Assembly: GCA_958296045.1 (NCBI GenBank)
Contig: CATQHT010000001.1
Location: forward strand, 310,001 to 374,000
DNA length: 64,000 nt
Direction: 5' to 3'
Source: Rhodothermales bacterium
GTDB lineage: Bacteria > Bacteroidota > Rhodothermia > Rhodothermales > Bin80
Translations under genes and position numbers: made by a program
Shown: in pieces, positions 16,462-54,233 of the stretch
Layout: the number at the start of each line of letters is the position of its first letter
Position numbering within the stretch: the stretch's first letter is position 1
Notes under the pieces: generated by a model
What the model was told of the DNA's origin: nothing
Seen by the model: the letters and a program-made list of their open reading frames with translations, nothing else
Databases searched by the model: none

Positions 16462-16855
16462 CCTTGGGGTGCGCTGGTGCCGAGTTCGCAATGCAGGCTG
16501 GTGCAGGGTCGCACGCCCTGACGCGTCTGGCACGAGGTCTGGACGGTGCAAAAAAAACGCAGCGACAGTGGCGGAGGTCTTGATTTTTGAATTGTATATA
16601 AGTACTTTGTGTCCGATCGCGAACTAGGGAGGCACACCAGCCTGACACACAGTTACGGACATCTCTTGCTAAGCTGCCGTCGCGGAACAGGACGGATCGG
16701 TGCAGAACCGCTTGGGGCGGCATTCCCCGTTAGGTATGGCTCGTCGCGATGTGGTATCTTGTCTGGGTGGTGCAGGGGCCTTCCTGAGCCATGTCGCAAG
16801 GTACAACGGCTTGGTGCACACCTGCCTGATTTCATTCACTAATCGGAGGTTGAAC
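16462..16855. other. Intergenic region before the TonB-dependent receptor gene
   Basis: 394 bp. It contains a run of eight A at about 16549-16556 and an AT-rich patch around 16580-16605 (GAATTGTATATAAGTAC) that is the likeliest promoter area, but I cannot define -33/-7 or -35/-10 boxes with confidence. A GGAGG-type ribosome-binding site lies at 16845-16849, seven bases before the ATG at 16856. Confidence 0.45.
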
Positions 16856-19800
16856 ATGCTACGCAAATGGAGTGCAGTAGTAATGGCGCTGTCTTTGGCG
16901 CCAGTTCTTGCGTTCGCGCAGAATACCGGAAAGGTTGCAGGCCAGGTCACGGATGCGACGACCGGTGAATCACTGCCCGGCGCTTCTGTGTTGCTGGTTG
17001 GAACAACGCTGGGAACCGCGGCAGATGTCGACGGCAACTACTTCATCATCGGGGTCCCTGTGGGCACCTACGATGTCCGCGTGTCTTTTGCTGGCTACCA
17101 GACCGAAACCGTCATCGGAGCAGAGGTGAACGGGGGATACACCCGAGAGCTCAATTTCGCTTTGCAGCCCGGGGTCGAGCTGGAGGAGATCATAGTGGAC
17201 TATGAGCGCCCGCTGATCCAGAAGGATGCGGTCGGCGTGCCTCGGATAGCGACCTCGGAGGATATTGAGCGGTTACCGGTACGCGGTGCCGCTGCCGTGG
17301 CCAAGATCCAGGCCGGCGTGGTGAGCAAGGAAGGAAGCGGAACGCTCAACATCCGCGGTGGCCGCGGCGGTGAGGTCAGTTACTATGTGGATGGCGTCAA
17401 GAGCGCAAGTACCGGCGTGCCCCAGTCTGCGGTGCAGGAGCAGGAGATGCAGATTGGGAGCATCAATGCGCGTTATGGCGATGCGATGTCGGGTGTCATC
17501 AATATCACGACCAAGTCTGGGGCTTCCGATTTCTTCGGTTCTGTGGAAGCATTGTCTTCCAACCAGACCGATGTGTACGGATACAACCTAGCTTCGGCGA
17601 CCTTAGGGGGACCGCTCGGGACGGACGCGCTCAACTTCTTCGTTTCGGCCGAGTATGTTGACCGGCAGGACGGCAACCCCCGCAATGTCCAGACCTGGAC
17701 GGTTCCAGATGACTTGCTGCGGGACTTGATCGATGCGCCAACGGGGTTCTTGGTAACAGCTCCAGGTGGCAGCGAGTTCATTGTGCCTATTCCTGCTTCA
17801 TTAGCAGACAGCGCCTACATCCTGGTCGATGAGTTCTCCGCGCCTGATCTGAGCGAAGGCGGGATCATGTTCAGTGACGGGACCTTTTTGCCTGGCGTTC
17901 CTGAAGGGTCCAGCATCTCACTCAATCCGATCAGCCGCCTTGAGTATGTGGGTGAATCGGATTTGACGCGTGAATACAAGAAGCGTGGGCGGAAGAGTCG
18001 GGCCCTGAGGCTCAGTGGCAATGTAACGGTGAACGTTATCGAGAGTGGACGCTTTCGCGTGGGGGCCGCTATTCAGACAGGAGATTACCAGAGTGGCATC
18101 GGCGGAACCACGGAAATGTTCAGCCCACACTTGTGGCAGGCGAACGAGTATTTCAACGGACAGCTTCATGCTCGGTGGACGCAATACCTGTCTCAATCGA
18201 CCTACTACCAGATTCAGGGCGAATACCGATTTAGCAGCAGCGAGTACTGGGATCCACGTTTCGGAAAGACTGAGGCCGACTGGTGGCATTACCGTGATGC
18301 GGATCATTCAGTACATCAGAATTACAACGGCTACAAGAATCTCAGCTACGCGCTTGAGGAGTTCACCGATGCAGACGGGAATACGGTCCAGCGTCTGGCC
18401 CCCAAGTTCACGCGTAGGTATCCCGACGGCCTGCTGGCAGGCAATCAGGCGACCGCAGGATTGGTCGGCCTGACGGGACGCACCTTCGGTTACGGCCACG
18501 CTGCCGGTGGCACATTCAGGATGCACGGTTCTGCTACGACTCAGATCGGTATTAATCAGCTCGAATTCGGCGCTGAATTCGAACAGGGTGCATACCGCAA
18601 TTTCTGGGTCAGCACATACAACCTGTCGCGCCTTTATGCGGACGGTAATCCTGAGTATATCGGTGCTGAAGACACGGAGCTGAACACCGACGGGTACACC
18701 AGCACAGACGACATGCCCACTTGGCTTCAGGCCAGGATCTTTGGCGGGACCGGGTACTACTTTGATGGTAAGACGCATTTCAATTCCGACGAGCACTATT
18801 TCACGGACAATGGCTTCTTGTCCACCAGCAAGGATAAGCCGGAAGAGTCGTACCTGCTCCCGCCGCACCAGCCGGTGTTGTTTGGTGGCTACATCCAGGA
18901 CAAGATTGAGTTCAGGGATATCGTACTGAATTTCGGCTTGCGCTTGGACATCTACGACAACAACCGCCTGATATTCAAAGACAAGTACGCGAGGCGCCCC
19001 ATCGTCAGGGTAGGGGATCTAGATGGTGTCTCTGTGCCGTCGAACATTGGTGCGGAGTACGCGGTCTACTTCAGTGGAGAAGACGTTGTGGGCTTCAGGG
19101 ACTACGACGGCAATTTCTACAATGTAGACGGGCAACAGGTGCAGGCAGCCGAGGTATTGTTGAATGGCTTGGTCAAGATCACCAACCAGCAGGTTGAGCC
19201 CGACATGTTCGAGGACTTCAAGCCCATCTGGACGCTTATGCCGCGCGTCGGCGTCAGCTTCCCGGTGACTGATCAGGCTCTGTTCTTTGCCAGTTACGGT
19301 GTAGTTACGCAGCGACCAGGTGGTGCTAACGCGGATATCGGATGTATCGCCGCTACGGGATGCAGTCGAAATCCCAGTTTGAAGCCCACGGTCACCACCA
19401 AGTATGAACTTGGGTTCCGGCAGCGTATCGGACCGCGGTCGGCTATGACGATCAATGGCTTCTTTCACCAGATCAACAACCTGATCCAGATACGCGACAT
19501 ACGCGGTGCGAGTCCGAGCACCTATTCGCGTTTCGAGAACGTGGATTTTGGGACGGTCAAGGGACTCGAGTTCGCATATGACCTGCGACGGACCGCTGGG
19601 CTCCGCATCAATGCGAACTACACGCTGTCGTATGCGAAGGGCACTGGCTCTGGAAGTGGCACTACCAGCACGATCGTTTGGATTGATGAGACACCGCCCA
19701 ACTTCATCAGCTGGCTCAGCTTTGACCAGCGTCACAAGTTCAATATCTCACTGGACTACTCGTTTGGGCACGGTGAGGGGCCGACGCTTATCGGAACAAA

Positions 19801-20230
19801 GCTACTGCAGAATATGGGCTTCAGCATTTTGGCAACTTCCGGCAGCGGTTTCCCCTATACGGGCGTTCTTGATCCAGTTCCGCTCGGCGTGTCTCGCGCC
19901 CCGGTTCCCAAGGGTGCGATCAATGATGACCGGATGGCTTGGACCAATCGCATTGACCTGCGCATTCAGCGGCGTTTTCGCATGGCCAACAACAGTCGTT
20001 TAACTGCATTCCTCTGGATCCAGAACCTGATGAACACCGTCAACATCCAGAATGTATGGCGCTATTCTGGATTGCCAGGGGACGACGGCTTTCTTGCTAC
20101 CAGAGAAGGCCAATCGCGGATCGAGGATGGCGTGCCGTTGTATCCGATTGCCTACCAGCACCGCAATCGTTCTTTGGGTAATTACGGACTGCCACGGCTT
20201 ACTCGCCTCGGGATCAGGTTTGACTTTTAG
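16856..20230 (+). CDS. TonB-dependent outer-membrane receptor with carboxypeptidase-regulatory-like N-terminal domain
   Basis: 1124 aa. I chose ATG 16856 because it has a good Shine-Dalgarno and opens a signal peptide (MLRKWSAVVMALSLAPVLAF, cut after AFAQ). The frame is open 52 codons further upstream without such features. Residues about 24-105 form a CarboxypepD_reg-like beta-sandwich (GKVAGQVTDATTGESLPGAS, VPVGTYDVRVSFAGYQTE). The plug has LNIRGGRGGEVSYYVDGVKS and INARYGDAMSGVINITTKSG. The remainder is beta-barrel strands with alternating aromatics, ending LTRLGIRFDF with a terminal aromatic. Such receptors import ligands or act as Oar-like outer-membrane proteins; the ligand is unknown. 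No SusD partner follows, so a classical Sus pair is unlikely. Confidence 0.9.
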   Translation: MLRKWSAVVMALSLAPVLAFAQNTGKVAGQVTDATTGESLPGASVLLVGTTLGTAADVDGNYFIIGVPVGTYDVRVSFAGYQTETVIGAEVNGGYTRELNFALQPGVELEEIIVDYERPLIQKDAVGVPRIATSEDIERLPVRGAAAVAKIQAGVVSKEGSGTLNIRGGRGGEVSYYVDGVKSASTGVPQSAVQEQEMQIGSINARYGDAMSGVINITTKSGASDFFGSVEALSSNQTDVYGYNLASATLGGPLGTDALNFFVSAEYVDRQDGNPRNVQTWTVPDDLLRDLIDAPTGFLVTAPGGSEFIVPIPASLADSAYILVDEFSAPDLSEGGIMFSDGTFLPGVPEGSSISLNPISRLEYVGESDLTREYKKRGRKSRALRLSGNVTVNVIESGRFRVGAAIQTGDYQSGIGGTTEMFSPHLWQANEYFNGQLHARWTQYLSQSTYYQIQGEYRFSSSEYWDPRFGKTEADWWHYRDADHSVHQNYNGYKNLSYALEEFTDADGNTVQRLAPKFTRRYPDGLLAGNQATAGLVGLTGRTFGYGHAAGGTFRMHGSATTQIGINQLEFGAEFEQGAYRNFWVSTYNLSRLYADGNPEYIGAEDTELNTDGYTSTDDMPTWLQARIFGGTGYYFDGKTHFNSDEHYFTDNGFLSTSKDKPEESYLLPPHQPVLFGGYIQDKIEFRDIVLNFGLRLDIYDNNRLIFKDKYARRPIVRVGDLDGVSVPSNIGAEYAVYFSGEDVVGFRDYDGNFYNVDGQQVQAAEVLLNGLVKITNQQVEPDMFEDFKPIWTLMPRVGVSFPVTDQALFFASYGVVTQRPGGANADIGCIAATGCSRNPSLKPTVTTKYELGFRQRIGPRSAMTINGFFHQINNLIQIRDIRGASPSTYSRFENVDFGTVKGLEFAYDLRRTAGLRINANYTLSYAKGTGSGSGTTSTIVWIDETPPNFISWLSFDQRHKFNISLDYSFGHGEGPTLIGTKLLQNMGFSILATSGSGFPYTGVLDPVPLGVSRAPVPKGAINDDRMAWTNRIDLRIQRRFRMANNSRLTAFLWIQNLMNTVNIQNVWRYSGLPGDDGFLATREGQSRIEDGVPLYPIAYQHRNRSLGNYGLPRLTRLGIRFDF

Positions 20231-20288: not shown

Positions 20289-23200
20289 ATGCATCATTTT
20301 CGCAACGCACTTGCGGTAGCACTATGCACCCTGTTGTTTGTCGGGGTTCCCGAAGTGGAGGCGCAGCAGACAGGCACCTGCACATCGCCTCTTAGCGAGC
20401 AGTACTTGGACATCAACAATGTTCGTGCTCGGCTCTTCAATAACGGGAACCTGTTTTGGCGGGGTTCTCCAGCCGTATACGAGGTACCGAAGGGTGGGGG
20501 TGCCAGTGCCATTTTTAACTCTGGGATCTGGGTAGCAGGCTTGGTAGGCGGGCAGCTTCGAGTCACTGCCGCCCGCTACGGAAATTATCAGTTCTGGGCT
20601 GGCCCATTGGATGATAACGGCAATCCGCCAGACGACTGTTCGGTGTATGACCGTATGTACAAGGTTAGTCGGGGGGACGTCACCGATTACGATGCGACGG
20701 GATCTGCGGCCCCGGACCTACGCGATTGGCCCACGGGCTTGGGCGCGCCCACGCTGGCGCCTTCCAACAATGGGCTGGATGATGACAATGACGGTGCGAT
20801 AGACGAGGAGGGAGGGGAAGTTATGATTGTAGTCGACCAGCCGCTTACCACCCGAGCAGACCGAAAGATTGACCTAGCTGGCGGAGAGCGCCCAGCGATT
20901 CTCGGTGATCAGTCAATCTGGTGGATCATGAATGACCGGGGGAATGAGCATTTGCTACCAGGTGGGGACACGCCTCCTATCGGCCTGGAGGTTCACGGGA
21001 TGGCGTTCGCCTTTAATGCCGCTGGGCCGATAGGTGATGCGACCTTTTATAAGTATGACATCTTCTACAAGGGCAACGACCCACTAACGGATGCGTACAT
21101 GGCGGTGTATTCGGATCCAGACCTCGGCAATTTCTTGGATGATTGGGTAGGCTCTGACACGGTTCGGGGGATTGGATTCGTGTGGAACGGGGACAACGAG
21201 GATGAAGGTGGTAGCGGTTACGGCACGCCACCGCCTGCTGCGGGATACGACTATTTCCAGGGACCTATCGTGCCAAGTCCGGGCGATACCGCCAACGTGA
21301 GCGGCGTAAAGGTGCCAGATTTCAAGAATTTGGGGATGTCCTACTTCGCCTACTATAATAATGCTGCCGCTGGTCCAACTACAGATCCTCGCAATGGTGT
21401 CGCTTACTACAACTTCATGCAGGGGCGCTGGGCGGACGGGCAGCGATTTACTTATGGCGGTGACGGGCGCTCATATTCGCAGGATGGTGTGGACCATGTG
21501 TTCCCAGGCGATGTGGGCAACAGCCCGGAAACCTGCCAGTTCTGGTCCGAGTGCAACATTGATGAAATCGGCACGGCTAACCAGTCGACGGATCGCCGTT
21601 TCAACATATCGTCAGGTCCCTTCACGATCAACCCGGGTGATTACCAGCAGATCGTGTTTGGTATCGTCTGGGCGAGGGGAAATAATAACCACCACTCGGT
21701 CACGGCGATGAAGCAGGCGGACGAGCTTGCGCAGGCGGCGTTTGACGTCAACTTTGAGGTGCCGGGCCCGCCGGATCCGCCGATGCTCGTTGCGACCCCT
21801 GCCGATGAGGCGGTCATATTAGAGTGGTCCTATTCACCGCTTTCGAACAACTACCTTAATTCTTACTCGGCCGAGGATCCGTTTACGCCGGATGATGACA
21901 AGGATTACCTGTTTGAGGGGTACGACGTGATTCAATACGAGAACGTCTTGGATGATGTTGGACGAGTGATTGCGACGTTTGACGTTCCGAACGGGGTCAT
22001 GCGGGTCATCGATGGATTTCCGGGTGAGCCGTCGGAGGTCACAGCCACGGGCAGCGATAATGGCGTGGTGAACTCGTATACCGTATCGGGGCTGACGAAC
22101 TACAAGACGTATCACTTTGCCGTGCAGGCGTACGCGTACAATGCGCCGTCTTTCCCGAAGGTTTATCGGGGGCCGGTTACGCGCGTGAGCGTGGTGCCAA
22201 CGATCCCGACCAGGGATGTTTCTGACGCGGCGCAGGCTTTGATGGGTGGATCTGCTCCAGACTTTGTGGCTGAGGCTATCGTATCTGTCGGAGACGGCGA
22301 GGTATACGCACGGGTGGTGAATCCGGTAAGGATGCTGAATGCCACGTATACGGTAGACTTTTACGAGCACGACTTTGGCAAGAACAATGCCGCAGTGATC
22401 GCTGCTGCTGAGGACGGCGTGGTGGATCCGATGGGGCCAGACGCGCTGACAAAGGTACAGGACGTTGCTGAGGTAGCGATCACGTACAACATATCGCGTA
22501 ATGACGAGCCCCTCTTTGTAGGCAGCGACATACCTTTCGCGGCGCCGCTGGGGCAGGGCGTATTTTCGGCAGATGGGCTCACCTTTGACGTGCTGGGGCC
22601 GTCTGCGGGATTCAAGGATTTTCATGTGACAGCCAATGCCGACGGTGTATTGGATCCTTCGGACTACGCTGCTTGGGGATGGGCGGGCATGCCTGACCCG
22701 CGTGGGTACGTGGTAGGATTCAGGGGCTACCAGCAGGTCAGTGGTGCGGTATGGGGTTACCATGCTGGCGGTGGTGCTGAGCAGAACAACACTTATCCTT
22801 CGTATGGGCCGGCGTCCAATGGGAACTCGTTCCTAGGGCGCACGATGAGAGGCGGAGCCTTGTATCCGTTCCTGGGCGTCTGGGACTACGAGCAGCGATT
22901 CTCGGAGGACTGCGTGGATGGAATGGATGGTACCATTGACGTCGACAACGATTGCCTTGCGTTTCGTGAGTACAGCGACGATGCGATTATGGAGATGCCG
23001 TTCACGCTGTGGCGGGTTGGGGTAGACACTCCAGATGACCCAAGCGACGATATTCAGATGGTTCCGATCATCTGTGACAGCAACACATGTGGCGGTGGGA
23101 ACGAGCATGATGCATATGACATCGGCGGTGACCACGGTGCGTCCAGTGGTAACAACGATCCGCTTACGGACTGGATTTACTGGAATCTGCCCAGTGACGC

Positions 23201-23780
23201 CAGCCCTGGCTCCGCGGGTTATAAGGACTTTTTCACGCAGCTAGATGGTGGCACGGTCTCCGCTTACACGCAGGTGATTGCGCGTACGGTACTCGTGGCA
23301 TGGAATGAGGGTACGGCCCCGCCGTACGACCGGCCATTGCCAGAGTCAGGGACGGTCTTTCTTATTCAGACCAACAAGAGCAATCAGCCGGGGGACAAGT
23401 ATGCCTTTTCTACGGACGGATACGGGGCGGTGCAGCCGGAAGGTGACCGGGCCCTTGAGCGTCTGGACGAGATCGGCATCGTACCCAATCCGTACAAGGG
23501 TGCTTCTGATTACGAGGTCAGCCAGCTGACCAACGAGGTTCGTTTCACCAACATGCCGGATGTGGCGACCATTCGCGTGTTCACGCTTAACGGCACGTTG
23601 GTGAAGACGATTGAGAAGAGGTCACCGGGTATTGCCACGATATCGTGGGACATGGTGACAGACTTCAACCTGCCGATTGCGAGTGGGCTGTACCTGATTC
23701 ATGTTACGGTACCTGATGTGGGCGAGAAGGTGCTGAAGTTTGGGGTCATCAAGAAGCGCGTCCAGCTTAACACGTATTAG
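20289..23780 (+). CDS. Large secreted protein with fibronectin-III-like region and T9SS-type C-terminal domain (copy A)
   Basis: 1163 aa. Signal peptide MHHFRNALAVALCTLLFVGV, cut near VEAQQ. The N-terminal half (LDINNVRARLFNNGNLFWRG, SGIWVAGLVGGQLRV) is a domain common in large secreted proteins of this phylum, without known enzymatic motif; Asp/Asn-rich loops such as NNGLDDDNDGAIDEE look calcium-binding. Near residues 495-625 lies an FN3-like segment (PGPPDPPMLVATPADEAVIL to NYKTYHFAVQAYAYNA). The C-terminus has NPYKG, then ATIRVFTLNGTLVKTIE and ASGLYLIHVTV, the layout of a T9SS sorting domain. From about residue 471 the DNA is nearly identical to the paralogue at 25210. It lies between the TonB receptor and a PorV-like gene, which fits export by T9SS. 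Confidence 0.8.
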   Translation: MHHFRNALAVALCTLLFVGVPEVEAQQTGTCTSPLSEQYLDINNVRARLFNNGNLFWRGSPAVYEVPKGGGASAIFNSGIWVAGLVGGQLRVTAARYGNYQFWAGPLDDNGNPPDDCSVYDRMYKVSRGDVTDYDATGSAAPDLRDWPTGLGAPTLAPSNNGLDDDNDGAIDEEGGEVMIVVDQPLTTRADRKIDLAGGERPAILGDQSIWWIMNDRGNEHLLPGGDTPPIGLEVHGMAFAFNAAGPIGDATFYKYDIFYKGNDPLTDAYMAVYSDPDLGNFLDDWVGSDTVRGIGFVWNGDNEDEGGSGYGTPPPAAGYDYFQGPIVPSPGDTANVSGVKVPDFKNLGMSYFAYYNNAAAGPTTDPRNGVAYYNFMQGRWADGQRFTYGGDGRSYSQDGVDHVFPGDVGNSPETCQFWSECNIDEIGTANQSTDRRFNISSGPFTINPGDYQQIVFGIVWARGNNNHHSVTAMKQADELAQAAFDVNFEVPGPPDPPMLVATPADEAVILEWSYSPLSNNYLNSYSAEDPFTPDDDKDYLFEGYDVIQYENVLDDVGRVIATFDVPNGVMRVIDGFPGEPSEVTATGSDNGVVNSYTVSGLTNYKTYHFAVQAYAYNAPSFPKVYRGPVTRVSVVPTIPTRDVSDAAQALMGGSAPDFVAEAIVSVGDGEVYARVVNPVRMLNATYTVDFYEHDFGKNNAAVIAAAEDGVVDPMGPDALTKVQDVAEVAITYNISRNDEPLFVGSDIPFAAPLGQGVFSADGLTFDVLGPSAGFKDFHVTANADGVLDPSDYAAWGWAGMPDPRGYVVGFRGYQQVSGAVWGYHAGGGAEQNNTYPSYGPASNGNSFLGRTMRGGALYPFLGVWDYEQRFSEDCVDGMDGTIDVDNDCLAFREYSDDAIMEMPFTLWRVGVDTPDDPSDDIQMVPIICDSNTCGGGNEHDAYDIGGDHGASSGNNDPLTDWIYWNLPSDASPGSAGYKDFFTQLDGGTVSAYTQVIARTVLVAWNEGTAPPYDRPLPESGTVFLIQTNKSNQPGDKYAFSTDGYGAVQPEGDRALERLDEIGIVPNPYKGASDYEVSQLTNEVRFTNMPDVATIRVFTLNGTLVKTIEKRSPGIATISWDMVTDFNLPIASGLYLIHVTVPDVGEKVLKFGVIKKRVQLNTY

Positions 23781-23878
23781 CGAGGCCGTGCGGGTCCCCG
23801 ACAGCGGGGACCCGCACAACCTTAGAAAACCAATTCCTTTCAACGACGAGGGACAACTGCTATGAAAACTCTGACTAC
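21699..23878 (+). repeat. 2180-bp direct repeat, copy 1
   Basis: Matches 26617-28796 at an offset of 4918 bp. By eye I find one difference (22188: A here, G in copy 2; Thr/Ala). It covers the C-terminal 60 percent of the large secreted protein, the intergenic hairpin, and the first 17 bases of the PorV-like gene. Upstream of 21699 the two genes are clearly diverged. Confidence 0.9.
23788..23817 (+). terminator. Perfect hairpin after the large secreted protein gene (copy A)
   Basis: 12-bp perfect stem GTGCGGGTCCCC / GGGGACCCGCAC with a 6-base loop GACAGC, 8 bases after the stop. There is no T-run after it, so it may act as an mRNA-stabilising or partial-termination hairpin. The identical hairpin occurs in the second repeat copy. 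Confidence 0.6.
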
Positions 23879-24941
23879 GGACTTGCATCCTGCTCTGGGC
23901 GGTCTTATGATTGCGTTTGTACTGGCCTTTACCAGTCATTCCGCTTGGGCTCAGGAGGGGGGAGGCACCGACAAGCCAGACCAGAACCGCGTTGGAACGG
24001 CTGGCGCGGTTGAACTACTTGTTCCGCTAACCGCTCGTTACGTCGCGCTAGGTGCGACGACGACGAGCTCTCTGGCTGACATGAATGGCCTTGAGGCTCT
24101 TTATGCGAATCCCGCGGGGCTGGTCAACAATTCTGGAACCTCGGCGCTGTTTAGCCGAATGAACTATGTCGCAGACATTGGTGTGAGCTACTTTGGGTTT
24201 GCGCAGCGTCTGGGCAGCGACAACCATCTAGCCGTGGCTGTTTCCTCGTGGGAAATCGGCGACATTGCGCGGCAGTCCGAGCTGGCTCCCGAGAAGTCGG
24301 ATGTCACCTTCAACGTGTCTTTCGTAGCTGTAGGCCTGACGTATGCTAAGGTCCTAACGGACCGGATTTCGGCGGGCGGTACGATCAAGATTGTCAATGA
24401 GAGCATTGACGACGTATCGGCGTCGGGCGTAGTGTTTGATGCCGGAATGACGTATGTGGTTGGTGAGACCGGTTTGCGTGTGGGTGTAGCGCTAAAAAAC
24501 ATCGGTAATCAGCTTCAGTTTGACGGTGTGGGTCTGACGCGGCGCGTGCAGCTTCCGTCACAGCCTGGCAACGCTACGGTGAATGCGGTGAAGATTGAGT
24601 CGGAGGCGATGGAGTATCCGACGCTGCTGAATTTCGGGATGGCCTACACACGGCAGGTGGCTGGTGCGGCGAGCCTCACGGTACTTGGTAACTTCAGGTC
24701 AAACAGCTTTGAGCAGGACCAGTTTAGCGGTGGTCTAGAGCTCGGGTTTCGCGGCATGTTGTTCCTGCGGGGCGGATACGAGTATGTGGCCGACAGCGAT
24801 GTATCCATGTGGAAGGGATACACATTTGGTGCAGGCCTGAACCTTGACCTGCAAGGAACCGGCATCAGCATTGACTATGCGATGGCTCCGACCGACTACT
24901 TCGATGATGTTCAGTTCTTGACGGTCGCAGCCACCCTTTAG
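23862..24941 (+). CDS. PorV/PorQ-family outer-membrane protein
   Basis: 359 aa. Signal peptide through SHSAWAQ near residue 30. The mature start has the PorV-like pattern GTAGAVELLVPLTARYVALG followed by LEALYANPAGLVNNSGTSAL, the 'NPAGL' segment being typical of this FadL-like 14-strand barrel family. The rest is beta-strands, including ISAGGTIKIVNESID and FLRGGYEYVADSDVS. PorV shuttles cargo from the T9SS translocon to the sortase complex; close relatives such as PorQ have related roles. Its position directly after a sorting-domain protein gene fits a dedicated export partner. The start ATG lies inside the 2.18-kb repeat and is shared with the gene at 28780. Confidence 0.85.
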   Translation: MKTLTTDLHPALGGLMIAFVLAFTSHSAWAQEGGGTDKPDQNRVGTAGAVELLVPLTARYVALGATTTSSLADMNGLEALYANPAGLVNNSGTSALFSRMNYVADIGVSYFGFAQRLGSDNHLAVAVSSWEIGDIARQSELAPEKSDVTFNVSFVAVGLTYAKVLTDRISAGGTIKIVNESIDDVSASGVVFDAGMTYVVGETGLRVGVALKNIGNQLQFDGVGLTRRVQLPSQPGNATVNAVKIESEAMEYPTLLNFGMAYTRQVAGAASLTVLGNFRSNSFEQDQFSGGLELGFRGMLFLRGGYEYVADSDVSMWKGYTFGAGLNLDLQGTGISIDYAMAPTDYFDDVQFLTVAATL

Positions 24942-24950
24942 ATCGTGTAA

Positions 24951-24975
24951 TGGCCCGGGTTGGCACGCGCGGGCC
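24951..24975 (+). terminator. Hairpin downstream of the PorV-like gene
   Basis: GGCCCG (24952-24957) can pair with CGGGCC (24970-24975) across a 12-base loop, ten bases after the stop. There is no following T-run; weak candidate. The rest of the 268-bp gap up to 25209 shows nothing else I can name. Confidence 0.35.
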
Positions 24976-25209
24976 GTGCTACCTATGTGTGGGCCTTGGG
25001 TCCTTGATCTGCGGTCCGTAGGTGATTGAGACGGGGACTCGTCACCCAGAACAAGGCTTCTCGTGGTGATGTCGGCTACCTGACAGTTAGGTGGCTGGCA
25101 TCGCTGTTTGTGGCTAGACTTAGGGGGGTATGTCCTTGTTGAACACGTCTTGTTGCCCCATGCCAGTTGGTTGAGCGTTGCCAGTATCGACTGTGAACCG
25201 TAGACTATC

Positions 25210-28200
25210 ATGTATCCCTTCGTGAGGAAGAGTTGGATGGCGCTATGCGCCCTGTTGTCTGTCGTAGTTCCAGAAGTAGCGGCGCAGCAGACAGGCACAT
25301 GCACGTCGCCTCTGAGCGAGGAGTACTTGGACATCAACAACGTGCGTGCTCGGGTCTTTAATAACGGAAACTTGTTTTGGCGGGGCTCGCCAAGCGTTTA
25401 CGAGGTACCGGACGGCGGAGGCGTCAGTGCGATATTCAACTCCGGAATTTGGGTAGGCGGCCTTGTGGGGGATGAGTTGCGAGTGGCAGCTGCGCGGTAC
25501 GGTAATTATCAGTTCTGGGCTGGCCCGCTGGATGATGAGGGCGCTCCGCCAGACGACTGCTCGGTGTATGACCGCATGTACAAGGTGAGCCGGGGGGACA
25601 TTATTGAGTACGACGCAATGGGGTCAGCCGAGCCGGACCTACGCGATTGGCCAACGGGCTTGGGCGCGCCCACGCTGGCGCCTCCCAACAATGGGCTGGA
25701 TGATGATGATGACGGTGTGGTGGACGAGGAGGAAGGGGAACTCGTTATTGTAATAGGCCAGCCGCTTGCCAGCCGAGTAGGCCGAGTGATAGACCTAGCT
25801 GGAGGTGAGAGGCCAGCGATTCTCGGTGATCAGTCGATCTGGTGGATCATGAACGACCGGGGGAATGAGCATTTGCTACCAGGTGGGGACACGCCTCCGG
25901 TTGGTTTGGAGGTGCACGCGATGGCGTTCGCCTTTAATGCCGCCGGACCGATGGGTGATGCGACCTTTTACAAGTATGACCTCTTTTACAAGGGCAGTGA
26001 TGCGCTAAGGGAAGCGTACATGGCGGTGTATTCGGATCCAGACCTAGGGCATTATCAGGATGACTGGATTGGTTCCGATACGATTCGCGGAATCGGATTC
26101 GTGTGGAACGCCGACAATGATGACGAAGGGGGTAGCGGGTATGGGACTCCGCCTCCAGCGCTAGGTTATGATTTCGTTCAAGGACCTATCGTACCCAGTC
26201 CGGGCGATACAGCCACTGTCAGCGGGGTAAGGGTACCGGATTTCAGGAATCTTGGTATGTCCGTTTTTGGGTACTACAGTAGTTCTCTCGGTCCGACCAG
26301 TGAGCCGAATAACGCAGTGGAGTACTACAACTACATGCAGGGGCGCTGGGCGGACGGGCAGCGATTTACTTATGGCGGTGACGGGCGCTCATATTCGCAG
26401 GATTCGGTGGACCATGTATTCCCAGGCGATGTGGGTAACAGTCTAGAGACCTGCCAGTTTTGGTCTGAGTGCAATGTGGACGGCCTCGGATTGGTCAATA
26501 TCAAGTCGGATCGGGTGTTTTTTATATCGTCAGGTCCCTTCACGATCAACCAGGGTGACTACCAGCAGATCGTGTTTGGGATCATCTGGGCGAGAGGGGA
26601 GAACAACCACAATTCCGTCACGGCGATGAAGCAGGCGGACGAGCTTGCGCAGGCGGCGTTTGACGTCAACTTTGAGGTGCCGGGCCCGCCGGATCCGCCG
26701 ATGCTCGTTGCGACCCCTGCCGATGAGGCGGTCATATTAGAGTGGTCCTATTCACCGCTTTCGAACAACTACCTTAATTCTTACTCGGCCGAGGATCCGT
26801 TTACGCCGGATGATGACAAGGATTACCTGTTTGAGGGGTACGACGTGATTCAATACGAGAACGTCTTGGATGATGTTGGACGAGTGATTGCGACGTTTGA
26901 CGTTCCGAACGGGGTCATGCGGGTCATCGATGGATTTCCGGGTGAGCCGTCGGAGGTCACAGCCACGGGCAGCGATAATGGCGTGGTGAACTCGTATACC
27001 GTATCGGGGCTGACGAACTACAAGACGTATCACTTTGCCGTGCAGGCGTACGCGTACAATGCGCCGTCTTTCCCGAAGGTTTATCGGGGGCCGGTTGCGC
27101 GCGTGAGCGTGGTGCCAACGATCCCGACCAGGGATGTTTCTGACGCGGCGCAGGCTTTGATGGGTGGATCTGCTCCAGACTTTGTGGCTGAGGCTATCGT
27201 ATCTGTCGGAGACGGCGAGGTATACGCACGGGTGGTGAATCCGGTAAGGATGCTGAATGCCACGTATACGGTAGACTTTTACGAGCACGACTTTGGCAAG
27301 AACAATGCCGCAGTGATCGCTGCTGCTGAGGACGGCGTGGTGGATCCGATGGGGCCAGACGCGCTGACAAAGGTACAGGACGTTGCTGAGGTAGCGATCA
27401 CGTACAACATATCGCGTAATGACGAGCCCCTCTTTGTAGGCAGCGACATACCTTTCGCGGCGCCGCTGGGGCAGGGCGTATTTTCGGCAGATGGGCTCAC
27501 CTTTGACGTGCTGGGGCCGTCTGCGGGATTCAAGGATTTTCATGTGACAGCCAATGCCGACGGTGTATTGGATCCTTCGGACTACGCTGCTTGGGGATGG
27601 GCGGGCATGCCTGACCCGCGTGGGTACGTGGTAGGATTCAGGGGCTACCAGCAGGTCAGTGGTGCGGTATGGGGTTACCATGCTGGCGGTGGTGCTGAGC
27701 AGAACAACACTTATCCTTCGTATGGGCCGGCGTCCAATGGGAACTCGTTCCTAGGGCGCACGATGAGAGGCGGAGCCTTGTATCCGTTCCTGGGCGTCTG
27801 GGACTACGAGCAGCGATTCTCGGAGGACTGCGTGGATGGAATGGATGGTACCATTGACGTCGACAACGATTGCCTTGCGTTTCGTGAGTACAGCGACGAT
27901 GCGATTATGGAGATGCCGTTCACGCTGTGGCGGGTTGGGGTAGACACTCCAGATGACCCAAGCGACGATATTCAGATGGTTCCGATCATCTGTGACAGCA
28001 ACACATGTGGCGGTGGGAACGAGCATGATGCATATGACATCGGCGGTGACCACGGTGCGTCCAGTGGTAACAACGATCCGCTTACGGACTGGATTTACTG
28101 GAATCTGCCCAGTGACGCCAGCCCTGGCTCCGCGGGTTATAAGGACTTTTTCACGCAGCTAGATGGTGGCACGGTCTCCGCTTACACGCAGGTGATTGCG

Positions 28201-28698
28201 CGTACGGTACTCGTGGCATGGAATGAGGGTACGGCCCCGCCGTACGACCGGCCATTGCCAGAGTCAGGGACGGTCTTTCTTATTCAGACCAACAAGAGCA
28301 ATCAGCCGGGGGACAAGTATGCCTTTTCTACGGACGGATACGGGGCGGTGCAGCCGGAAGGTGACCGGGCCCTTGAGCGTCTGGACGAGATCGGCATCGT
28401 ACCCAATCCGTACAAGGGTGCTTCTGATTACGAGGTCAGCCAGCTGACCAACGAGGTTCGTTTCACCAACATGCCGGATGTGGCGACCATTCGCGTGTTC
28501 ACGCTTAACGGCACGTTGGTGAAGACGATTGAGAAGAGGTCACCGGGTATTGCCACGATATCGTGGGACATGGTGACAGACTTCAACCTGCCGATTGCGA
28601 GTGGGCTGTACCTGATTCATGTTACGGTACCTGATGTGGGCGAGAAGGTGCTGAAGTTTGGGGTCATCAAGAAGCGCGTCCAGCTTAACACGTATTAG
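25210..28698 (+). CDS. Large secreted protein with T9SS-type C-terminal domain (copy B)
   Basis: 1162 aa paralogue of the 20289 product with the same architecture: signal peptide (MYPFVRKSWMALCALLSVVV to VAAQQ), LDINNVRARVFNNGNLFWRG, an Asp-rich loop NNGLDDDDDGVVDEEEGE, an FN3-like region and the same sorting-type C-terminus. The first 470 residues differ throughout from copy A, whereas residues from about 471 on are identical apart from one position (PVAR in place of PVTR). Diverged N-termini with identical C-termini point to gene conversion or a very recent segmental duplication. The N-terminal half probably sets ligand or surface specificity; that is inference. Confidence 0.8.
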   Translation: MYPFVRKSWMALCALLSVVVPEVAAQQTGTCTSPLSEEYLDINNVRARVFNNGNLFWRGSPSVYEVPDGGGVSAIFNSGIWVGGLVGDELRVAAARYGNYQFWAGPLDDEGAPPDDCSVYDRMYKVSRGDIIEYDAMGSAEPDLRDWPTGLGAPTLAPPNNGLDDDDDGVVDEEEGELVIVIGQPLASRVGRVIDLAGGERPAILGDQSIWWIMNDRGNEHLLPGGDTPPVGLEVHAMAFAFNAAGPMGDATFYKYDLFYKGSDALREAYMAVYSDPDLGHYQDDWIGSDTIRGIGFVWNADNDDEGGSGYGTPPPALGYDFVQGPIVPSPGDTATVSGVRVPDFRNLGMSVFGYYSSSLGPTSEPNNAVEYYNYMQGRWADGQRFTYGGDGRSYSQDSVDHVFPGDVGNSLETCQFWSECNVDGLGLVNIKSDRVFFISSGPFTINQGDYQQIVFGIIWARGENNHNSVTAMKQADELAQAAFDVNFEVPGPPDPPMLVATPADEAVILEWSYSPLSNNYLNSYSAEDPFTPDDDKDYLFEGYDVIQYENVLDDVGRVIATFDVPNGVMRVIDGFPGEPSEVTATGSDNGVVNSYTVSGLTNYKTYHFAVQAYAYNAPSFPKVYRGPVARVSVVPTIPTRDVSDAAQALMGGSAPDFVAEAIVSVGDGEVYARVVNPVRMLNATYTVDFYEHDFGKNNAAVIAAAEDGVVDPMGPDALTKVQDVAEVAITYNISRNDEPLFVGSDIPFAAPLGQGVFSADGLTFDVLGPSAGFKDFHVTANADGVLDPSDYAAWGWAGMPDPRGYVVGFRGYQQVSGAVWGYHAGGGAEQNNTYPSYGPASNGNSFLGRTMRGGALYPFLGVWDYEQRFSEDCVDGMDGTIDVDNDCLAFREYSDDAIMEMPFTLWRVGVDTPDDPSDDIQMVPIICDSNTCGGGNEHDAYDIGGDHGASSGNNDPLTDWIYWNLPSDASPGSAGYKDFFTQLDGGTVSAYTQVIARTVLVAWNEGTAPPYDRPLPESGTVFLIQTNKSNQPGDKYAFSTDGYGAVQPEGDRALERLDEIGIVPNPYKGASDYEVSQLTNEVRFTNMPDVATIRVFTLNGTLVKTIEKRSPGIATISWDMVTDFNLPIASGLYLIHVTVPDVGEKVLKFGVIKKRVQLNTY

Positions 28699-28796
28699 CG
28701 AGGCCGTGCGGGTCCCCGACAGCGGGGACCCGCACAACCTTAGAAAACCAATTCCTTTCAACGACGAGGGACAACTGCTATGAAAACTCTGACTAC
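26617..28796 (+). repeat. 2180-bp direct repeat, copy 2
   Basis: Second copy of 21699-23878. It ends 17 bases into the gene at 28780, so that gene begins with the same MKTLTT codons and upstream region as the PorV-like gene. Confidence 0.9.
28706..28735 (+). terminator. Perfect hairpin after the large secreted protein gene (copy B)
   Basis: Identical to the hairpin at 23788-23817, carried by the direct repeat: 12-bp stem, loop GACAGC, no T-run. Confidence 0.6.
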
Positions 28797-29937
28797 AGAG
28801 CTGGCACGCAGCCCTGCAAGTCGCTACGAAGCAGCAAGGTGTGCTTATGCCTCTCCCATCTGTCCGCGGACTTGTCTTGCATGGGGGAAATGCTTTGTGC
28901 TTTACGCCGTTGTGCTTGTTCAGTTGTCGTCTGTTTCAATCGCCAGCTCGCAGCCTGCTGATTCCGAGCAACTAGCGCATTTCGAGTGGGTCAGGACGAT
29001 TAAGCTTTCCGACCCGAATGGCGTGCATCCAGACAGCTTGCTGATCTCGGAAATCAAAAGTCTGGATGTGGGCCCCGATGGCCGTATGCTTGTCGTTGAT
29101 TTGCTCGGAGGGCAAGCATTGCTGTTCGGTCCAGCCGGAGAACTTCTGGTCTTGCTTGATCCCTCCGTTTGTCATCCAGGATTTGAGGTTCGGCCTGTGA
29201 ATGCGAGGTTCTTAGGAAGCGAGTCCATCTTTCTAAACAACGCTGGTCCATGGGGATACCGGTTCACGTCAGATGGGAGGTGCTTGGGCAGTGTTGATAC
29301 GGACTATGCCATGGTTGTGCACAGCGGATTCCAGGATGTAGACGAGCAAGGGGATTTGTTTGGTCTGTATCGATTCCCGGACAAGCAGGTTATCAGGCAC
29401 ATGGATACCAGTGGTAAGACCGTGAGTGAGTTCGTCTTGCCTCCTAGCGCTTACCCGATTGCTATCGACCGGATTGGCATGGGTGGCTTGGTGGTAGATG
29501 ATTCCCACATATTCTATGCTGGATCGGTGGAAAGAGAGATATTGAAATTGACGCGTGACGGTACTGTCGTAGCTAGGATGTCACACCGAAGCCGTTGGTT
29601 TCGTGATGTAAGGAAAGATCTTCCAGACCCTAAAACCGATGGCACTCAGGCGTTTGTGACGGCCTCTGGTGCTCTGTTTGGGAACACTACGCTTATAGTT
29701 GACCTTTTCGAACTCTCTAGCGAGACTTTGCTGGTTCAGTACAGCAATGGATCTAGAGGTTCAGGCTACCAAGTCTTTACCAAGGAAGGAGTTGTCGTCG
29801 CACAGGAGCTCGGCGTACGCCATCGATTCCTGCATGGAAGCAACGGATTGGTCTACCGCGTGGTTCAGCCCGACCTAGACGACGCTGGCCAGTTGCCCAA
29901 CCCTTATATCGAGGTTTACGAATTCGTCGTACCGTAG
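28780..29937 (+). CDS. Secreted 6-bladed beta-propeller protein with a start borrowed from the PorV-like gene
   Basis: 385 aa. The first six residues and the upstream leader are identical to the PorV-like gene because they lie in the direct repeat; the sequence then diverges. A hydrophobic signal segment appears late, at about 46-62 (CFVLYAVVLVQLSSVSIASS), after an odd, Cys/Ala-rich stretch. This suggests that the original start was internal and the present N-terminus is a fusion product. The mature part has repeats of propeller type: KSLDVGPDGRMLVVDLLGGQ, YRFTSDGRCLGSVDTD, ILKLTRDGTVVARM. Such NHL/6-blade proteins are common in Bacteroidota, with no assigned enzyme activity. The terminus EVYEFVVP has no sorting domain. 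Confidence 0.65.
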   Translation: MKTLTTELARSPASRYEAARCAYASPICPRTCLAWGKCFVLYAVVLVQLSSVSIASSQPADSEQLAHFEWVRTIKLSDPNGVHPDSLLISEIKSLDVGPDGRMLVVDLLGGQALLFGPAGELLVLLDPSVCHPGFEVRPVNARFLGSESIFLNNAGPWGYRFTSDGRCLGSVDTDYAMVVHSGFQDVDEQGDLFGLYRFPDKQVIRHMDTSGKTVSEFVLPPSAYPIAIDRIGMGGLVVDDSHIFYAGSVEREILKLTRDGTVVARMSHRSRWFRDVRKDLPDPKTDGTQAFVTASGALFGNTTLIVDLFELSSETLLVQYSNGSRGSGYQVFTKEGVVVAQELGVRHRFLHGSNGLVYRVVQPDLDDAGQLPNPYIEVYEFVVP

Positions 29938-51032: not shown

Positions 51033-54000
51033 CTATTTGATTAGCGTCATCTGCTGAGTCTGGATCAGCTTACCATCTGCCTCCATGCGATACGAGTACA
51101 CCCCACTCGCGTATCCACCCGCATTCCAAGTCACCTGGTGGGATCCCGCAGCATACTGCGCCTGCTCCGCCAAGACAGCAACCTTTCTCCCAATAACATC
51201 AAACACCGTAAGCGTGACCAGTGACTCGTGCGGCACCGAAAACGTGATGGTCGTCGAGGGGTTGAAGGGGTTGGGGTAATTCTGTTCGAGAGAGAATCCA
51301 CTGGGCAGTTCACGAGCGATGTCGTCGGTACCGGTCTGCACCTCGGATAGCGGCAAACTCCATACTCCGCGGCCATGCGTCCCGACGATCAACTCGTCGT
51401 CACGAATCTTCATGCGCCATACAGATACTGCTGGCAGTCCGTTGTGCGCGTAGTTCCATTCCTTACCGTAGCTCCTGGACACGAAAATGCCAATAGCGGT
51501 ACCTACCCAAATGACGTTCGTTGAATGGGGCATAACCACAAGGTCATACGTGGCCACTTCGGGGTAGCCGTTGGTGCTAACACCAGTAGTGTCATAACCG
51601 GATAGGTCAGTCCACGTATCTCCATAGTCCTTGGTCTCTAGCACTTTGGCATAACTGAATCGCGAAAACAAGGCGTAAGCCGTTCCAGCTTCGGTCGGAT
51701 GCGTAGCGAGTCCCGATATAATAGTTTCGGGAGCCCGAGCCATGCCACTGGGAAGCTCCACCGCTTCAAAAGTCTCTCCACTATCCATAGAGACATGCAG
51801 CTTGCGGTCAGGGCTGGAATCCAATCCATGGCCTGCCCATACCACCTCCGGGTCAGCAATGGAAACGCGTGCCTTGCCAACACTGGTTGGACCCCACGAT
51901 TCAGTGATAGGAGTTAGTTCCCAGCTTGCTCCAAAGTTGCGCGTGTACCACACGCCGTCAGCTTTGGTCGTGTAAACGTTGTCAGGGGCCGCATCCGAGC
52001 TGCCCAGCGTAGTGATGAACTGCCCATTTTGGGTGTCATAGGGCATGCCAGGCGATCCGACAAAACTCACCCCTCCGTTAGTGCTTCGCAAGACGTAGCT
52101 GAACTGAATAGTCCCCAAAACCAAATTCGGATCAGTCGCATGCCAGACGGCCTCAAACCCGTCGCCTCCTAATACCTCCCTCCATCCGCGTCTGTTGTTC
52201 GGATTCCCAAACGATATCCATGTCCCATTGTCCTGAGTACCTCCCATATAGATGGGGGAACCGGGCTTCTTGGCGATCCCATAGAATTGCGACGTGTTGT
52301 ACCCAGCAAACCCATCGTCCAGCTCGCGAAATGCCACGGCATTATCCGTGGAGACGGCTACGCCGCCGTCGTTTGCATTAAGCATCCAAAACCGCTCAGC
52401 AGCCTCGTCAATGATGACTGGAACCAGATTGTGGTGATCGACGTGCGCATTCCCTGCAGGGTCGATCCCTCTATCAATGGTGCGCTCAAGACCATCGACA
52501 ACGGAATACTCGATCGTAAGGGTCTGATTCGGTAGGTTGTTGGAGTCCCAGGTGGCACCGGCGGCCAACACCGGCCACATGAAATAGAGCATCCCATTAA
52601 CCAAGCCGCCGTCTTGTGCAATATCAGCATGCGGCGCTGCAGCGTCATAGTCGTACTTGTGAATGAACATGTACTCCCGACTCTGGTTGTCGCGCTGACC
52701 AGCATCAGTGAAGATCTCTATCAGATTGAATTCGCCGTCGTCTGCCTGATCGCGAAAAGAAAACATCAGCTGGCGGTTGTTGTCTGTATCCCATACCTGA
52801 AACGGAATGTCCGCGTAGTCTCCGAACTGGTAGCTGCTGAACGGAATGCCTTGGCCGCCATCCCCGTTGGTGCCTGCTGTCTCGGATACCCAGAATCTAT
52901 GTGCTTTTTGCGTACCCTGGCCAAACCGCACTTCAATGGTAGTGTAGTCCATCCAAGCCACATCGACGGCATCGGTATCCAAGTAGGAGAGTATGCCGCC
53001 GAAATGAGAGGCACCAAAATTGACGAAGCCCATCCACGCTTCCGTGCCGCCGGTGTCAAATTCAGACGGCCCGGCTACGGTCGTCGACTGCCCTGACACC
53101 ATGTTACGCCAGAGGCTGATACCGCCGACGTAAACGATGTTCGGGTCAAACGGGTGAACTGCCAGTGTATTGTCATACCAGCCTTGGCCGCCCATCCAGT
53201 TTTGGTACGTGCTTTCCACAGTGATTGCGAAGCTCATACCTCCGTCGGTACTTCTGTAGAGGTCCGACACCGAGCCAGCCCATGCAGCCGCATACGCGAT
53301 ATCGGGGTCGGAGCGGGAGTATGTAACTTCCAGTCTGCTGAAGCCATTTACCCATACGACAGACGCTGGCTGCCAAGTGAGGCCTGCATCGGTGGAGTAA
53401 AAGATACCTTGTCCATTAACGCCAGCGATCTGCATATCAAAGTTGCCTGGCTGCGCACGCAGATCCTGAACGCGACCGGGACCCGTATAGGTTTCCGTCC
53501 ACGTCGCGCCACCATCCGTCGTCCGGAAAATGCCAGCGCCCGTACCTGCTACGACAACGTCCTCGTCGGTCGGGTCAACAGCGAGCCGATTGACATGTAG
53601 GAAGTCACGGTTGTTTGTGGTGGAGGTCAAGTGCTCCCAGGATTCTCCACGATCGCTGGAGCGAAACATGCCATTGCCATCCACGCCGTCAAGGTTTCCG
53701 AATCCTTCGCCTGTACCCATATAGATGACGTCGGGGTTGCCCGCTGCCATAGCGAGGCTTGTGACCGACATCACCGGAAGGTGGTCTGACTGGTATTCCC
53801 ACTTGAGACCGCCATTGATGGTTTTCCACAATCCGCCGCCGACGGCTCCGACCCACCATGTGTGCATGTCTGGATCGTCTGGATCAACGAGAATCGGCCG
53901 GGTGCGTCCGCCGACGTTGCCGGGGCCGCGCTCCACCCAGTTGAGCGCACTGCTTCCGGTCTTCATGGCCGCCATGGCCTTATTGAACTCAGCGAGGCGA

Positions 54001-54233
54001 TGCCCTGGGGGGTATTCCATGGAGCCATCTTCTGAAGCGCGGATCTCGCGATGATATTCAAAAAACAGGTCGGGGTAGCCCTGAGGGCTGGACATGACTT
54101 TTGACTTCTCGGAGCGAACTCCCTGCTGTCCCTGCTCAGCGCCTGGATCGTGCGCATCAGGCAACAGATGAATGGCAAACGGAAGGACCAGGAGGGACGT
54201 GAGGACGACCGCGATCAGCTTGGGTGCTTTCAT
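51033..54233 (-). CDS. Large secreted BNR/sortilin-type beta-propeller protein with T9SS sorting domain
   Basis: 1066 aa. Signal peptide MKAPKLIAVVLTSLLVLPFA. Repeats of the BNR/Asp-box type occur throughout: RSSDRGESW, RTTDGGATW, YSTDAGLTW, RSTDGGMSF, RSTNGGVSF, SMDSGETF, TKDYGDTW; together with WVERGPGNVGGRTRPILVDP near 100 they identify the VPS10/WD40-like glycosyl-hydrolase-fold group. A long insert near 370-560 carries FSSYQFGDYADIPFQVWDTD. The C-terminus has FSLEQNYPNPFNPSTTITFS, LTVFDVIGRKVAVLAE and ASGVYSYRMEADGKLIQTQQ, a textbook type A sorting domain. Exported by the T9SS to the surface or medium. Enzymatic activity is not certain, as many such propellers only bind. Confidence 0.88.
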   Translation of the reverse strand: MKAPKLIAVVLTSLLVLPFAIHLLPDAHDPGAEQGQQGVRSEKSKVMSSPQGYPDLFFEYHREIRASEDGSMEYPPGHRLAEFNKAMAAMKTGSSALNWVERGPGNVGGRTRPILVDPDDPDMHTWWVGAVGGGLWKTINGGLKWEYQSDHLPVMSVTSLAMAAGNPDVIYMGTGEGFGNLDGVDGNGMFRSSDRGESWEHLTSTTNNRDFLHVNRLAVDPTDEDVVVAGTGAGIFRTTDGGATWTETYTGPGRVQDLRAQPGNFDMQIAGVNGQGIFYSTDAGLTWQPASVVWVNGFSRLEVTYSRSDPDIAYAAAWAGSVSDLYRSTDGGMSFAITVESTYQNWMGGQGWYDNTLAVHPFDPNIVYVGGISLWRNMVSGQSTTVAGPSEFDTGGTEAWMGFVNFGASHFGGILSYLDTDAVDVAWMDYTTIEVRFGQGTQKAHRFWVSETAGTNGDGGQGIPFSSYQFGDYADIPFQVWDTDNNRQLMFSFRDQADDGEFNLIEIFTDAGQRDNQSREYMFIHKYDYDAAAPHADIAQDGGLVNGMLYFMWPVLAAGATWDSNNLPNQTLTIEYSVVDGLERTIDRGIDPAGNAHVDHHNLVPVIIDEAAERFWMLNANDGGVAVSTDNAVAFRELDDGFAGYNTSQFYGIAKKPGSPIYMGGTQDNGTWISFGNPNNRRGWREVLGGDGFEAVWHATDPNLVLGTIQFSYVLRSTNGGVSFVGSPGMPYDTQNGQFITTLGSSDAAPDNVYTTKADGVWYTRNFGASWELTPITESWGPTSVGKARVSIADPEVVWAGHGLDSSPDRKLHVSMDSGETFEAVELPSGMARAPETIISGLATHPTEAGTAYALFSRFSYAKVLETKDYGDTWTDLSGYDTTGVSTNGYPEVATYDLVVMPHSTNVIWVGTAIGIFVSRSYGKEWNYAHNGLPAVSVWRMKIRDDELIVGTHGRGVWSLPLSEVQTGTDDIARELPSGFSLEQNYPNPFNPSTTITFSVPHESLVTLTVFDVIGRKVAVLAEQAQYAAGSHQVTWNAGGYASGVYSYRMEADGKLIQTQQMTLIK

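Follow-up and report, generated by a model that had tools for sequence, protein, structure and literature searches.

Probable interlocus gene conversion of the C-terminal half in two neighboring secreted-protein paralogs of Rhodothermales

Two neighboring paralogous genes of a Rhodothermales bacterium, designated P1 and P2, have clearly distinguishable N-terminal halves and almost identical C-terminal halves. How did this pair arise, and why is the identity confined to one half of the gene? We analyzed the locus within a 64-kb stretch of DNA (64,000 nucleotides, hereafter the window), together with the genome it comes from (G000) and related loci in other Rhodothermales MAGs.

Gene content of the locus and extent of the duplicated tract

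The genes are arranged in the order TonB receptor, P1, PorV-like barrel, P2, a 385-aa ORF, a TPR protein and a cystathionine-lyase-like gene (the last named by eye). The features of the locus are as follows.

16853-20230 (+): TonB-dependent receptor, the first gene of the operon (Pfam PF13715 and PF00593; CarboxypepD_reg-like domain, plug and barrel), upstream of P in relatives too
20289-23780 (+): P1, an ORF of 1163 aa with a signal-peptide-like start, a weak FnIII match and a candidate C-terminal T9SS-type/FlgD-Ig-like domain
21699-23878 (+): putative conversion tract, P1 copy, running from codon 471 through the first 17 bp of the porV-like gene (sequence comparison)
23788-23817 (+): hairpin with a 13-bp stem and a 4-nt loop (z -5.7), between P1 and the porV-like gene and inside the tract
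23862-24941 (+): gene of a PorV/PorQ-family outer-membrane barrel (NF033709, 125 bits, above cut-off)
25210-28698 (+): P2, a 1162-aa paralog of P1 (80% DNA identity in the N-half, 99.9% in the C-half; every segment of the N-half has P1 as its sister)
26617-28796 (+): putative conversion tract, P2 copy (sequence comparison)
28706-28735 (+): second copy of the intercistronic hairpin, part of the identical tract
28780-28796 (+): relic of the porV-like gene start (ATGAAAACTCTGACTAC), in frame with the next gene
28780-29937 (+): 385-aa ORF, propeller-like by eye, with no Pfam match, and starting with six codons that form the porV relic

Among the Rhodothermales MAGs compared, the core of TonB receptor, P and PorV-like genes is kept in genera of the same family. 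In G006, which has a single-P arrangement, the PorV-like gene directly precedes the TPR and lyase genes; thus, the lineage of the window seems to have gained P2 and the 385-aa ORF by insertion. Hairpins of differing sequence occupy the gap between P and the porV-like gene in G002, G006, G003, G015 and G011, the structure being kept across genera. A Pfam search with the N-half of P gave no match, nor did a search with the P alignment against the sequences of solved structures, and structure prediction for P1 from five sequences yielded a mean pLDDT of 26.5.

The original prediction described a near-perfect direct repeat of 2.18 kb with sharp edges, and direct comparison bore out both points. 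The segments 21699-23878 and 26617-28796 are each 2180 bp long, are spaced by 4918 bp and differ at one position, A22179 in P1 versus G27097 in P2, which replaces Thr by Ala. They contain the C-terminal 693 codons of P1 and P2, the 81-bp intergenic region with its hairpin, which perhaps sets the relative expression of P and the barrel, and the first 17 bp of the PorV-like gene. The left edge coincides exactly with codon 471 of P1 and lies within homologous DNA (54-94% P1/P2 identity per 50 bp over the preceding 300 bp), and the right edge is the point at which recognisable homology stops. The longest identical coding runs between P1 and P2 measure 1598 and 480 bp in the tract versus at most 70 bp elsewhere, which excludes chance as the cause of the identity; no second repeat of comparable size is present in the 64-kb window. 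The first 1.4 kb of the two genes had been said to differ throughout. The differences are real (276 of 1392 sites, 80.3% DNA identity), but they amount to merely 20% divergence between homologous N-halves.

Divergence of the two halves and its recurrence in relatives

The N-halves of P1 and P2 (82% protein identity) show a dN of 0.11, a dS of 0.77 and a dN/dS of about 0.14, versus a dS of 0 in the C-half. Since P1 and P2 are sisters in the trees of every N-half segment, the duplication is lineage-specific and a single event suffices to explain the N-half, whereas the dN and dS values mark it as old. We thus interpret P2 as an old, lineage-specific duplicate of P1. Its N-half changes about two times faster than that of P1 (branch lengths 0.20 versus 0.10; 70 versus 41 derived sites), and the substitution pattern indicates that it remains under purifying selection despite this faster rate. 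A recent overwrite of the C-half is the sole simple reading of the contrast between a dS of 0.77 and a dS of 0. The identity includes synonymous positions and continues beyond the P reading frame into non-coding DNA, through the 81-bp intergenic region to 17 bp of porV. Four-fold-site identity between P1 and P2 is 71-85% at residues 117-284 and 33-50% at residues 39-136 and 265-363; older partial conversion tracts may also lie in the N-half.

In comparisons across species, it is the N-half that is better conserved (about 65%, against 51% for the C-half, in g6, another genus of the family). This bears on the earlier proposal of one C-terminal half shared by variable N-terminal halves. The C-half is indeed shared and the N-halves keep separate identities, but they are not variable: given the better conservation of the N-half across species, a diversity of N-halves on a constant anchor is unsupported, and the N-halves merely retain separate histories.

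In g6, the P duplication is also old, with one copy in the operon and the others stand-alone. Trees of these paralogs group the N-halves by orthology across genomes (G015_P2 with G011_P2, support 100/99; G009_C9a with G007_C115, 100/99) and the C-halves within each genome (G015_P1 with P2, 100/99; G011_P1 with P2, 95/96; G009_C36 with C21, 95/95). AU tests rejected the within-genome pairs for the N-half (p 0.0097 in G015, 0.0105 in G011 and 4e-6 in G009) and the ortholog pairs for the C-half (p < 1e-49). In a site map of G015 and G011, sites of the within-genome and ortholog classes number 10 versus 28 at residues 150-449 and 158 versus 4 at residues 500-1049; the totals are 23 versus 32 before residue 450 and 171 versus 16 after it (Fisher p 8e-14). 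A comparison of tract edges in relatives had been proposed, and the switch in these two genomes, near residue 500, indeed falls close to the codon-471 edge of the window. Trees, AU tests and site map agree that concerted evolution in g6 affects the C-half and spares the N-half. The phylogenetic conflict between the halves is thus shown in g6; for the genome of the window, what can be shown is the tract and a duplication specific to its lineage.

Two G009 copies are about 100% identical at residues 710-900, a stretch that we interpret as a fresh tract. The first ~136 residues are homogenised in G015 as well, so that protection covers less than the full N-half. In G035 and G001, the paralogs pair in both halves, so that no conversion is needed there; for G035, raw identities had hinted at a further conflict that the trees removed. 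A similar hint from raw identities in G057 stayed only suggestive in the trees (N-half pair support 61/46; C-half ortholog pair rejected, p 3e-5). Taken across Rhodothermales, C-half conversion is recurrent and not universal.

A breakpoint at the porV start of G002 was considered as a parallel and dropped, the copy being truncated beside a transposase-like ORF (by eye). In the same genome, part of the operon has recently been duplicated (99%; L037:4332-8874); P residues 1-177 are joined to 612-693 in this duplicate, which transposase-like ORFs flank. The stand-alone g6 copies of P (L043, L045, L047, L053) lie directly 3' of ExbB-ExbD-ExbD-like genes (by eye); ExbB and ExbD are the energy source for TonB transport.

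Conversion model and competing explanations

The identity of the P1 and P2 C-halves very probably reflects interlocus gene conversion. In the proposed sequence of events, an early duplication would have copied P, the intergenic region and just the first bases of the porV-like gene, giving rise to P2. Much later, non-reciprocal homologous recombination would have overwritten P2 from codon 471 onwards, up to and including the 17 bp of porV, and the same process would have acted repeatedly on the C-half of the P family in other Rhodothermales. The left edge would then be a tract stop within about 80%-identical DNA, and the right edge the limit of homology.

Conversion probably ran from P1, the most likely donor, to P2. 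The 17-bp relic behind P2, with its ribosome site, agrees with what is conserved at the porV starts of G002 and G006; as an unaided relic should have drifted over the time implied by a dS of 0.77, it was probably re-copied from P1. The lone tract difference is derived in P2, since relatives carry Thr, and this Thr-to-Ala replacement would have arisen after the overwrite. The relative-rate ratios fit either direction, P1 to P2 or the reverse.

The 385-aa ORF of the window starts at the ATG of the relic and stays in frame with it for six codons, and relatives of this ORF align only from about residue 17-38 onwards; a search of viral contigs gave no match to it. In G011, an LRR protein of 878 aa that carries a Por_Secre_tail domain (L045:1704-4340, minus strand) also starts in frame at the relic start. 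Thus, in each of two lineages another gene has come to lie behind the former porV start, which is its putative start codon.

The original prediction left the choice between gene conversion and a recent segmental copy. The former is well supported, the half-gene pattern recurring independently in relatives, and the latter is improbable. In a segmental copy, end-joining or template switching would have attached 2.18 kb of P1 to a P2 gene truncated to its N-terminal part. The abrupt end of homology at the right edge is what such pasting would leave, and G002 carries a recently duplicated, broken P. However, the join in the window is in perfect register at a homologous codon with flanks that are 80-88% identical, as homologous recombination gives, and the full-length stand-alone P copies of g6 likewise end a few bases into porV, which makes this ending a usual state.

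An assembly artefact, by which the C-half of P1 was misassigned to P2, is less probable again. Short-read MAG assemblies of the clade do break inside P: in G009 the assembly forks there, with contig ends overlapping by exactly 55 nt, as expected from its near-identical copies. But the 4.78-Mb genome of the window is assembled in only 4 contigs, so that repeat collapse is unlikely; the tract copies have an internal difference and intact reading frames, and G015 and G011 repeat the pattern at 5-12% divergence, where collapse is impossible.

Still harder to credit is a set of antigenic-variation cassettes, in which P2 and other copies swap N-halves onto one expressed C-half. A shared C-half with separate N-halves, and the several stand-alone copies in g6, would suit such a system, but the N-halves are under purifying selection and better conserved than the C-halves, and G000 has two copies only and no silent N-only cassettes. 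Finally, stronger purifying selection on the C-half with no exchange at all, for which nothing speaks beyond the identity itself, can be dismissed for practical purposes, as synonymous sites are identical too and the C-half evolves faster than the N-half between species.

Gene conversion thus remains the preferred reading. Unequal crossing-over between the two tract copies had also been predicted; it would delete 4918 bp, taking out the PorV-like gene together with the N-half of P2, but no such product was found among the relatives, and the single-P arrangement of G006 retains the PorV-like gene.

Secretion context and comparison with known systems

Residues 1047-1154 of P1 match the C-terminal-domain models of PorZ and PorU with E-values of 7e-6 and 1e-4, far below the model cut-offs; the fn3 and FlgD_ig matches are sub-threshold (FlgD_ig E 0.01), and Pfam gave no Por_Secre_tail match in P. 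These matches weakly suggest a T9SS-type domain at the C-terminal end of P. T9SS machinery is encoded in the genome (SprA, 1689 bits, and PorU, 942 bits, both above cut-off), and the gene at 23862-24941 exceeds the NF033709 cut-off of 90 bits and scores under the cut-offs of the PorV and PorQ equivalog models. The triad of TonB receptor, CTD-like protein and PorV-family barrel occurs five times in the genome (16853-24941, L095, L096, L097 and L098), which has ten PorV-family matches in total. Among the P-like C-terminal-domain matches of the genome, P2 alone lacks a barrel gene directly behind it.

In T9SS, type B CTD proteins and PorP-like barrels (SprB-SprF, PG1035-PorP) form several pairs per genome, in which a FadL-family barrel gene adjoins the cargo and the partners are thought to be cognate (PMC9143113). 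The P locus resembles these pairs in having a barrel gene beside a CTD-bearing cargo and multiple pairs per genome, and differs in that the barrel is of the PorV/PorQ family, a TonB receptor lies upstream and the pairing is putative. By this analogy (PMC9143113), the PorV-like barrel may be the partner of the C-half of P1; P2, without its own barrel, would present the same C-half to that partner, so C-half conversions would be kept and N-half conversions selected against. Such sharing of the P1 partner is a speculative and rather unlikely reason for the conversion. Equally doubtful is its general form, namely that a type IX-like cargo that has lost its own cognate PorV-like barrel keeps using that of its sibling, different N-modules being carried on one export/anchor half and repeated C-half conversion across Rhodothermales being the trace. 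Alternatively, conversion could be frequent everywhere, with N-half events removed because N-half functions differ. If partner sharing does drive conversion, one could read from the tracts which half of a secreted protein has to fit the partner that exports it.

Half-gene homogenising was not found described in the literature for a P-type secreted protein. The closest precedent appears to be babA/babB and homA/homB of H. pylori, in which, as PMC2795765 recounts (citing Pride and Blaser 2002), segment 3 of both genes clusters per strain by gene conversion and segment 1 diverges. These are likewise outer-surface paralogs with a concerted 3' segment and a divergent 5' segment, but the proteins are unrelated to P. 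In that account, the process acts between strains of one species and is tied to antigenic variation, whereas the P family, in another phylum, shows it over longer times, between species and genera, with a conserved N-half in place of a variable segment. Long-lasting concerted evolution, with paralogs within a genome more alike than orthologs and recurrent over lineages, has been surveyed in prokaryotes (PMC6053082); the portion of that survey considered here treats whole genes, whereas in the P family the conflict divides one gene into two halves. The P family thus offers a clean example, outside pathogens, of recurrent concerted evolution confined to half a gene, in a secretion setting where cargo and barrel are apparently paired one to one.

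Another probable T9SS cargo is encoded inside the window, by a 1066-aa ORF at 51033-54233 (-) with a Por_Secre_tail match above cut-off (G000:C1:361063-361278).
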